Positions 10,318 to 11,562 of a stretch of 64,000 nucleotides of DNA are shown one piece after another. Within the stretch, counting starts at the first letter, position 1. Each line of letters opens with the position of its first letter. The notes beneath the pieces are model-generated. The model worked only from the letters and a program-made list of their open reading frames with translations, was not told where the DNA came from and did no database searches. This DNA comes from Symbiodinium sp. CCMP2592 (lineage: Eukaryota > Sar > Dinophyceae > Suessiales > Symbiodiniaceae), in assembly GCA_905221615.1 (NCBI GenBank), contig CAJNDT010001013.1, forward strand, positions 372,001-436,000, in the 5' to 3' direction. A program made the translations under genes and the position numbers.

Positions 10318-10372
10318 ACCCTTTGTTATCAGGGTGTCACACACACAGCTACTCCCCAGTTTTGGGGAGTAG
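10318..10372 (+). other. pair of hairpins (loops TTGTTATC and GTTT)
   Basis: First stem ACCCT/AGGGT around TTGTTATC, then stem CTACTCCCCA/TGGGGAGTAG around a 4-nt loop. A related pair with altered but still pairing stems is at 11378-11432. Confidence 0.8.
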
Positions 10373-10397
10373 TGGAAACATGTGGAAACATGAAGGT

Positions 10398-10439
10398 CAT
10401 CAGATGGTTCGCAGGTCAATGCCGCAGCCCCATCTGATG
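10398..10439 (+). other. R2 hairpin 1 (conserved loop TTCGCAGGTC...GCAGCC)
   Basis: Stem CATCAGATGG/CCATCTGATG, 10 bp and perfect, closes a 22-nt loop that starts TTCGCAGGTC and ends GCCGCAGCC. Four more R2 copies with other stems are at 10457, 11078, 11144 and 11455. Confidence 0.85.
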
Positions 10440-10456
10440 CCTGCTTGGTTTGGGCT

Positions 10457-10500
10457 CACCATGACGTTTCGCAGGTCAAAGCCGCAGCCAGCACATGGTG
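10457..10500 (+). other. R2 hairpin 2
   Basis: Outer stem CACCATG/CATGGTG around the same R2 loop. The inner four pairs seen in the copy at 11455 are lost here. Confidence 0.75.
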
Positions 10501-10521
10501 CCCTTGAAAAAAAGGTCATCG

Positions 10522-10753
10522 GGGGTACGGGTCCTGCCCCATTGAGGCTTGGGTCCTGGCGTCTCGTACTGTCGTCAGGGGTAAGGGTCCTGCCCCTTGT
10601 TTTGTCGTTATGGCTAGGGTCCTGGCCTTGTTGTGTCGTCAGGGGTACGGGTCCTGCCCCATTGAGGCTTGGGTCCTGGCCTCACGTGCTGTCGTCAGGG
10701 GTACGGGTCCTGCCCCCCATTTTTTTTTTGTTAAGGCTTGGGTCCTGGCCTTA
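10522..10753 (+). other. cluster of eight R3 hairpins (loop ...GGGTCCTG)
   Basis: The loop TNNGGGTCCTG recurs eight times. Stems are GGGG/CCCC (10522, 10642, 10698), AGGGG/CCCCT (10577), GAGGC/GCCTC (10664), TAAGGC/GCCTTA (10732), a short GGC/GCC (10612) and an imperfect GAGGC copy (10544). Stem sequence changes while pairing is mostly kept. Two more are at 11521-11562. Confidence 0.8.
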
Positions 10754-10924
10754 TGCCGATACAGATGCATCGAATCATTCAAGTAATACATGCTTTCATG
10801 CTCGGCCCTTGCTTTGCATTAGGGAAGCGGAAAAAGAAAAAGGAAAAGACAAAGGCTTTGCAGGAAGGCGGGCGGTTGGCTGCGTAGCCTTAAAGCGTAA
10901 CAGCAACGTAAACGAAAAGTAAAG

Positions 10925-11030
10925 GAGCTGCAGCTGGAGGCAGCCTTTTTGGCTTGGAAAAGCCTCTGGCTTCGAGCATTGAAAAAGAAAAGAACTGTGA
11001 CTGCGAAACGACACATGCGGGAAAAGAAAA
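10925..11030 (+). CDS. possible Lys/Arg-rich exon
   Basis: The frame reads KELQLEAAFLAWKSLWLRAL and then KKKRTVTAKRHMREKKR up to a GTAAGG donor. The first eleven codons almost all end in G or C; the later part is A-rich. No start or acceptor is clear. Alternative frames are also open. Confidence 0.3.
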
Positions 11031-11077
11031 GGTAAGGGGTGGCCCACATTGGGCACTTCAAACCCCGTTAGAGGGCT

Positions 11078-11124
11078 GCGCTCGCAGTTCGCAGGTCTTA
11101 CAGAATGCCGCAGCCCTGCAGCGC
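11078..11124 (+). other. R2 hairpin 3
   Basis: GCGCTCGCAG pairs with CTGCAGCGC with one bulged base. The loop is 28 nt, again starting TTCGCAGGTC and ending GCCGCAGCC. Confidence 0.75.
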
Positions 11125-11143
11125 ATGTCCTATTAATACGGTC

Positions 11144-11195
11144 AAGCATCCACAGTTCGCAGGTCTTACCGAAATGCCGCAGCCCTGCGGTGCTT
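11144..11195 (+). other. R2 hairpin 4
   Basis: AAGCATCCACAG pairs with CTGCGGTGCTT with one bulge and one mismatch around a 29-nt R2 loop. Confidence 0.65.
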
Positions 11196-11358
11196 GCCGA
11201 CCGACAGCTGAAATTCGTTGCACTGGTCGAAGATATACTCACAAAACTGCCGCATTTTGGCACTTTTGTTTTCGTTAGCATCAATCTTGATGCCTTGTTG
11301 ATCGCAATATACAGAGGCATACTGATCCAGGTCCGCTTTGCTTTCCCGGAACTTCTGC
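11174..11358 (-). CDS. possible minus-strand exon
   Basis: On the minus strand about 60 codons are open, beginning near KFRESKADLDQYASVYCDQQ and containing SAKMRQFCEYIFDQCNEFQL. The frame runs into the R2 hairpin at 11144-11195 and meets a GTAAGA there. The charge pattern looks like a real protein. The plus strand is also open over the same stretch (137 codons, mostly hydrophobic), so strand is not settled. No family recognised. Confidence 0.35.
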
Positions 11359-11377
11359 ATCCCCCTGCGGATTTGGT

Positions 11378-11432
11378 CCCTTTGCTATCAGGGCTGTACA
11401 CACACAGCTACTTCCCAATTTCGGGAAGTAGC
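11378..11432 (+). other. second hairpin pair
   Basis: CCCT/AGGG around TTGCTATC, then GCTACTTCCC/GGGAAGTAGC (10 bp). Compared with 10318-10372, two opposed stem bases have changed together (CCCC/GGGG to TCCC/GGGA). Confidence 0.8.
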
Positions 11433-11454
11433 ATGCAATTCGTCGTCTGGGGGT

Positions 11455-11498
11455 CACCATGACGTTTCGCAGGTCAACGCTGCAGCCACGTCATGGTG
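11455..11498 (+). other. R2 hairpin 5
   Basis: Stem CACCATGACGT/ACGTCATGGTG, 11 bp and perfect, around the 22-nt R2 loop. Confidence 0.85.
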
Positions 11499-11520
11499 CC
11501 CTGGAAAAAATGCGTCGTCT

Positions 11521-11562
11521 GGGGTAAGGGTCCTGCCCCATTGAGGCTTGGGTCCTGGCCTC
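11521..11562 (+). other. two R3 hairpins
   Basis: GGGG/CCCC around TAAGGGTCCTG, then GAGGC/GCCTC around TTGGGTCCTG. Same order and spacing as at 10642-10683. Confidence 0.8.

Follow-up and report, generated by a model that had tools for sequence, protein, structure and literature searches.

Within the 64,000-nucleotide stretch of the Symbiodinium sp. CCMP2592 genome analysed here (contig CAJNDT010001013.1, positions 372,001 to 436,000; hereafter the window), positions 10158-11979 are occupied by an apparently noncoding repeat of 1.82 kb that contains several families of short hairpins and that we propose to be a non-autonomous Penelope-like retroelement. The repeat begins and ends with direct repeats of 190 bp (10158-10347 and 11790-11979; 100% identical), lies in a CA-repeat context and has a GC content of about 51%; the CA run leaves the precise position of its ends ambiguous. 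The minus strand is taken as the sense strand because all eight protein homologies found in gene-bearing relatives (see below) lie on that side, and in this orientation the terminal repeats are referred to as 5' and 3' pseudo-long terminal repeats (pLTRs). The parts of the element are listed below, with the strand given where one was assigned; numbers with the prefixes L and C denote genomic loci and contigs, respectively.

10158..11979, minus (inferred sense): whole element, terminal repeat - interior - terminal repeat, in (CA)n; based on the 190-bp direct repeat and on copies ending in CA repeats
11790..11979, minus: 5' pLTR (sense orientation), direct repeat
10158..10347, minus: 3' pLTR (sense orientation), direct repeat
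10319..10334, minus: hairpin CCCTGATAACAAAGGG at the pLTR start (sense); the stem is CCTCT/AGAGG in L063
11951..11966, minus: copy of the start hairpin CCCTGATAACAAAGGG in the 5' pLTR
10169..10184, minus: hairpin ACTCTC-GCCA-GAGAGT, just ahead of the (TG)n at the 3' end; its stem reads ACTCC/GGAGT in L003 and L008
11361..11406, minus: beginning of a pLTR of a second subfamily, located in the interior and cut short at GCAGGGGG in sense
10144..10163: (CA)n flank, sense 3' side
11971..12237: (CA)n/(CAGA)n flank, sense 5' side

The truncated stretch at 11361-11406 is seen again in L003-type elements, where it lies at the far end. In the five longest frames of the window element no Pfam family scored above the cut-off, nor was any convincing similarity to an endonuclease-reverse transcriptase (EN-RT) found in the element; the window copy lacks an EN-RT gene and is therefore non-autonomous. 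Its interior holds an open frame of 72 amino acids (11166-11384, minus strand) whose peptide QQGIKID is shared with the gene-bearing L066 (2525-2551; E about 0.2, an unproved similarity), and this frame may be the relic of a Penelope-like open reading frame (ORF).

A preliminary description of positions 10318 to 11562 had reported three recurrent hairpin types with conserved loops and stems that change yet still pair: R2 in five copies, R3 in about ten, and a third pair, here H1, with a single compensatory change. All of them sit within the 1.82-kb repeat.

10348..10372: H1a hairpin (CTACTCCCC/GGGGAGTAG)
11407..11431: H1b hairpin (CTACTTCCC/GGGAAGTAG), compensatory relative to H1a
10398..10439: R2a hairpin
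10457..10500: R2b hairpin, right arm damaged
11074..11128: R2c hairpin, with a G-C to A-T double change in subfamily L039
11144..11195: R2d hairpin
11455..11498: R2e hairpin, 11-bp perfect stem
10519..10753: array of eight R3 hairpins, types alternating
11518..11562: two R3 hairpins

R2 is a hairpin with a variable outer stem and a constant inner part, TTCGCAGGTC...GCCGCAGCC. The sequence TTCGCAGGTC occurs five times in the window, always within 10408-11475 (0.08 expected), and all five copies with their conserved loop fall in predicted hairpins, as had been described, the copy at 10468 having a right arm that is damaged relative to its kin. The core of R3, GGGTCCTG, occurs 14 times, ten of them within 10529-11557 (2.7 expected in the whole window). 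These ten copies and their covarying stems agree with the earlier account; the loop as written there fits five of them only, since two types alternate around GGGTCCTG, five reading GGGG-TNNGGGTCCTG-CCCC and five GAGGC/AAGGC/ATGGC-TNGGGTCCTG, and the stems at 10551 and 10617 are imperfect. The H1 pair shows the C-G to T-A exchange, to which a relative adds CTACTCCTC/GAGGAGTAG.

Both pLTRs carry a further structure, absent from the preliminary description, that resembles an H-type pseudoknot and consists of fixed GCAGGG and CCAACGAAG blocks together with two helices, P1 and P2, which vary among lineages and still pair. Read in sense, GCAGGG is followed by a P1 arm, a P2 arm, the second P1 arm, AACGAAG and the second P2 arm, which is the order of an H-type pseudoknot.

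10259..10313, minus: pseudoknot module of the 3' pLTR, from covariation and genome count
10300-10307 with 10278-10285, minus: P1 of this module
10286-10295 with 10259-10268, minus: P2 of this module
10271-10277, minus: its loop AACGAAG
11891..11945, minus: pseudoknot module of the 5' pLTR, second copy, at +1632

Relatives at L003, L008 and L036 keep the layout of the element with diverged ends, in which TTCGTTGG and CCCCCTGC are invariant and the two surrounding helices are completely changed. When the genome (1.098 Gb in 5383 contigs) was searched with the pattern CTTCGTTGGN{14,40}CCCCCTGC, 1515 matches were obtained, as compared with six for the control, in which the pattern was read backwards. 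The 100 of these 1515 matches that were listed yielded 49 distinct sequences, 36 of which pair at all eight positions of P1 (G-U allowed). At the six variable positions a mean of 5.65 were paired, vs 2.80 with swapped partners and 3.45 in the best of 2000 shuffles, and among 39 distinct pairs every one of these positions shows all four Watson-Crick pair types. For P2, examined in 11 sequences that include three from the window family, the mean longest helix was 9.5 vs 5.7, the best of 1000 shuffles giving 7.7. In some lineages (L003, L008) the P1 and P2 arms abut, so that the two helices may be unable to form in full simultaneously, and alternation between two hairpins instead of a full pseudoknot is possible.

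Searches with Rfam 15 gave no match at the gathering level in the window or in ten loci (pLTRs in L063, L003, L008 and L036, interiors in the others), including none to a canonical hammerhead; low-scoring matches to microRNA, small nucleolar RNA and long non-coding RNA models lay far below their cut-offs. The earlier statement that no named family with these loops is known agrees with these scans. Matches to the module pattern in viral and prokaryotic collections look like chance, as judged by their poor pairing: among the matches listed, all six positions were paired in 0 of 77 viral and 1 of 119 prokaryotic sequences (1 of 196). The attC-like sites, the hammerhead and the hepatitis delta virus-like ribozymes were set aside because the fixed blocks do not fit and no Rfam match reached the gathering level. 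Introner elements were rejected as well, having inverted repeats of 8-20 nt at intron ends (PMC7789003), unlike the window hairpins.

The hairpins of the interior are likewise found throughout the genome, the R2 core giving 107 matches and one form of R3 giving 111, each vs 0 in the reversed control. In a set of 15 R2 sequences, 80.4% of cells pair and the score is 0.364 vs 0.148, values that none of 500 shuffles reached; the counts of changed pairs and of pair types were matched by 46 and 86 of 500 shuffles, respectively, which leaves two of the five measures without a clear excess over the shuffles, and with partners slid by +3 pairing was still 61.7% (score 0.233). This set includes L047, by eye a probable chance match beside gene-like exons, which was omitted from the energy test. 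In the latter, 11 R2 classes had a duplex energy of -12.7, as compared with -6.7 when partners were exchanged (none of 500 trials as good), the three poor classes being L001 and both copies of L007, and 17 R3 copies from two repeat families had -8.6 vs -6.1 (0 of 1000 as good). Pairing is kept between subfamilies, and several single copies within one subfamily carry pair-breaking changes (by eye), as expected of dead copies. The pairing tests on R2, R3 and the pLTR module support the proposal that conserved loops with covarying stems mark a folded RNA, and the occurrence of copies on many contigs excludes a single recent tandem duplication as the source of all of them.

Some R2 and R3 hairpins lie in repeats where no such ends were found and are therefore shared modules, not private to the window element, which makes a host protein as possible a reader as the reverse transcriptase (RT). 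At L070 (C202:1194700-1196500), seven R3 hairpins follow GTCGTCGTC words at 690-930, with new covarying stems GGAAGGA/TCCTTCC and AGAGGA/TCCTCT, and neither a pLTR module nor a CA run was seen there. The GGGGTTT form of R3 also occurs on C779, C802, C1112, C1225, C2024, C2057, C2502 and C2813. Clusters of R2 or R2-like hairpins (GAGCTTCGCA...AAGCCGCAG) lie at L048 1280-1600 and L007 1470-1830 in 3-kb stretches in which the module pattern gave no match; a broader family of R2-like hairpins is likely, and single R2 or R3 modules may spread.

Searching the genome with the whole window element gave at least 72 matches on at least 40 contigs (40 of 123 candidates scored). Copies abut CA repeats, some of them short: in a scripted comparison of sense 3' flanks, 17 of 21 had at least 12 CA/AC steps out of 23, vs 0.9% of random 24-mers from the window, and the four flanks below this threshold were two internal junctions, one chance 10-mer and one real end (L019) with a short CACAC. 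At L003 and L011 the order is end-interior-end-interior-end in tandem.

The link to a coding partner comes from the spacing of the module. Counted by eye among the 100 listed matches, 15 same-strand pairs with identical modules lie 8.0-11.1 kb apart (30 of the 100) and eight lie 0.8-1.6 kb apart (six identical, two nearly so), with further pairs spaced 5-6, 14.6 or over 20 kb. Eight elements were opened (L063-L069 and L071, i.e., seven of the 15 pairs plus one 7.8-kb pair), of which L063 was covered to both ends. In all eight, which span 7.8-11 kb, homology to an EN-RT protein was found, always on the strand opposite to the module pattern; stop-to-stop frames of 906-949 amino acids are present in L063, L065, L067, L068 and L069, and the gene is broken in L064, L066 and L071. 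The exact 24-mer of the window's module occurs twice on C5133, 7.8 kb apart, flanking pieces of a broken EN-RT gene; in the other seven elements the module has different stems. The ends of the gene-less L003 share 88-90 bp at 100% identity with the pLTR of L063, an 8.2-kb element whose own 415-bp ends are 99.8% identical and lie in CA repeats. Identical modules 14.6 kb apart were seen on C55 (220333/234931) and C67 (294392/308981), possibly a longer family or nested insertions.

Six EN-RT proteins from five lineages were aligned, with 24-27% identity to L065 except for its 96% relative L067. All six have the GIY-YIG endonuclease motif (V/I)Y..Y(I/V)GS..R..E..N.P, identified as a motif only, N-terminal to the RT, the CxC pair between the two domains (C395/C397 of L065) and the RT motifs K.KK..GR.I, N.DL.GFF and G...G...SP. 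Motif C reads RYVDNR in all five aligned RTs that reach it (L063, L065, L067, L068 and L069), N replacing the second D of the usual YxDD. Further ORFs are found at L063:2220-4157 (minus) and L063:6975-7958 (minus), and long frames lie beside the EN-RT in L064, L065, L067, L068 and L069; such ORFs are unusual for Penelope-like elements, and none of those scanned matched a Pfam family above the cut-off. Searches of PHROGs returned nothing of use.

A CxC pair between endonuclease and RT is a criterion for Penelope-like elements with an N-terminal endonuclease. The gene-bearing elements combine this pair with an endonuclease placed before a C-terminal RT, pLTRs and tandem copies, and with an insertion bias towards microsatellites (among gene-bearing copies, flanks were seen for L063). 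We therefore read positions 10158-11979, with a probability of roughly 0.8, as a non-autonomous, tandem-forming Penelope-like retroelement whose RNA would correspond to the minus strand, which would be mobilised in trans by the EN-RT and in which R2 and R3 would act as recognition or packaging sites; the hairpins and the pseudoknot together are probably sites of recognition.

Several observations weigh against this assignment. Two of the proteins matched Pfam RVT_1 (E 1.2e-4 and 7.1e-5), both below the curated cut-off; RVT_1 was not detected in L063, L064, L068 or L069, and none of the aligned proteins gave a Pfam GIY-YIG match. Support from the NCBIfam library was weak (a group II RT match for L063 at E 0.12), PDB searches gave one unrelated-looking match at E 0.025 and none with profiles, and a structure model of the EN-RT, computed from the sequence without an alignment, failed (predicted local distance difference test score 37.5). 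The match found between the window and a gene-bearing element covers the module, not the full pLTR, and target-site duplications are unreadable within CA repeats. R2 (L007, L048) and R3 (L070) occur also in repeats without a detected pLTR module, and the search for R2 in L063-L069, which covered both ends in L063 only, gave no match.

Under the Penelope-like reading, the partner enzyme would recognise the pLTR RNA, through its pseudoknot and end hairpins, in trans, and would nick a CA/TG microsatellite, after which the RNA, through its (UG)n tail, could anneal to the nicked target. Target-primed reverse transcription would then give single, partial-tandem and tandem copies. R2 and R3 may serve as reiterated sites for recognition or packaging of the RNA, through which the gene-less RNA could compete for the enzyme, for an accessory protein encoded by an element or for a factor of the host; the loops would be kept because a protein reads them, the stems needing only to pair. 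Two published studies describe comparable behaviour: in rotifer Penelope the pLTRs suffice to mobilise foreign DNA (PMC3846280), and a Penelope-like enzyme begins copying within an AC-rich stem-loop of its own RNA (PMC11167929).

A different mechanism, which we consider unlikely, would make the repeat resemble a retrozyme or a viroid: its pLTR module would be a self-cleaving ribozyme of a new kind, and tandem arrays would arise by reverse transcription of circular RNA copies. Its appeal lies in the terminal repeats, whose module combines two covarying helices with fixed single-stranded blocks, in the tandem multimers and in the hammerhead that another Penelope-like element carries where its pLTR meets the ORF (PMC11167929); it is set back by the Rfam scans, which matched no known ribozyme and no hammerhead in the terminal repeat, and by the abutting P1 and P2 arms of some lineages, which strain a full-length pseudoknot. 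Far less probable is that the conserved structures act as DNA, as cruciforms read by a nuclease or replication protein. Long perfect inverted repeats would suit such a role, and wobble pairs favour neither strand clearly (4 vs 6, with 213 Watson-Crick and 11 other pairs), but the partner is a retroelement, and the pseudoknot order and the kept loops would have no obvious use in DNA. Slightly less probable again is a miniature LTR retrotransposon (TRIM) mobilised by a partner of the Ty1/Ty3 type: identical direct terminal repeats do flank a noncoding interior, and a 5-bp CACAC duplication is conceivable at L020, yet by eye neither a tRNA primer site (TGG) follows the repeat nor a polypurine tract precedes it, and an EN-RT gene or its remains, in the GIY-YIG layout, was present in 8 of 8 opened module-sharing elements of 7.8-11 kb. 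Nuclear copies of organelle DNA with double-hairpin elements, to which the preliminary description had likened the hairpins, have a very low probability even though dinoflagellate mitochondrial DNA is rich in GC-rich inverted repeats (PMC2151934), since the element has its ends tied to a retroelement, a GC content near 51% and a CA-repeat context, the contigs bearing the 38 listed loci measure 136 kb to 2.9 Mb, the hairpins sit within a Penelope-linked terminal-repeat element, and the mitochondrial genome of Symbiodinium minutum is AT-rich and without highly repetitive sequence (PMC4558855).

Penelope-like elements with an N-terminal endonuclease, of the Naiad/Chlamys type, were reportedly described by Craig et al. 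in 2021. The elements studied here resemble that type in having GIY-YIG before the RT, CxC between them, pseudo-LTRs, tandem copies and microsatellite insertion, with no hammerhead found; they differ in their length of 7.8-11 kb with extra ORFs, in YVDN for YxDD, in being barely detected by library profiles, in pLTRs with a covarying pseudoknot-like module and in gene-less derivatives with hairpin arrays. With the mitochondrial double-hairpin elements of algae and fungi the R3 pairs share adjacent short GC-rich hairpins with conserved loops, but here these belong to a larger retroelement carried on long contigs. In canonical Penelope/Poseidon elements, which have hammerheads, pLTRs and tandem copies likewise occur, as do a structured RNA within or beside the pLTR and pLTR-driven mobilisation of other DNA (PMC11167929, PMC3846280), whereas their endonuclease follows the RT instead of preceding it and their RNA structure differs. 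The plant retrozymes, reported to be non-autonomous elements with hammerheads in their LTRs (PMC9695139), are similar in being short and noncoding with direct terminal repeats and a conserved RNA fold; they differ in that no hammerhead was found here and the partner is Penelope-like.

The element type itself is already known, and what appears to be new is the putative pseudoknot-like structured RNA in Penelope-like pLTRs, which seems undescribed. Among the papers found by searching an open-licence library that does not include the 2021 study of the clade, judged by their titles and the openings of their abstracts and, for PMC10085705, by its text, none appeared to describe a pseudoknot in a Penelope-like pLTR or such elements in a dinoflagellate. 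Among RTs, the Penelope-like group is regarded as closest to telomerase, and to our knowledge little is known of the RNA features that they recognise. The telomerase RNA pseudoknot offers a possible parallel, being likewise an H-type pseudoknot tied to an RT, whereas no template-like element was identified here. A shared ancestor of Penelope-like RTs and telomerase is stated in the abstract of one study (PMC3846280). We tentatively suggest, at a level well below that of the element assignment, that the pLTR pseudoknot might represent a new class of functional RNA, either a telomerase-RNA-like docking pseudoknot without which a Penelope-type RT could not begin copying or a small self-cleaving ribozyme, also new, that stands in for the hammerhead in this branch; the gene-less R2/R3 RNAs would exploit this pseudoknot. 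As the module is kept by compensatory change in dozens of lineages, on gene-bearing and gene-less elements alike, RNA recognition by Penelope-like RTs becomes directly testable; the module bears on how an RT came to use a dedicated structured RNA and offers a handle on a large class of dinoflagellate repeats whose proteins are scarcely detected by library profiles.

Two observations concern the genome and the window at large. The spliced-leader motif, which we take to be of the dinoflagellate type, has 429 exact matches in the genome vs 0 in the control. Interstitial telomere-like tracts of CCCTAAA/TTTAGGG occur in both orientations in the window, at 4945-5074, 37872-38162, 45389-46569, 52556-52840 and other positions.

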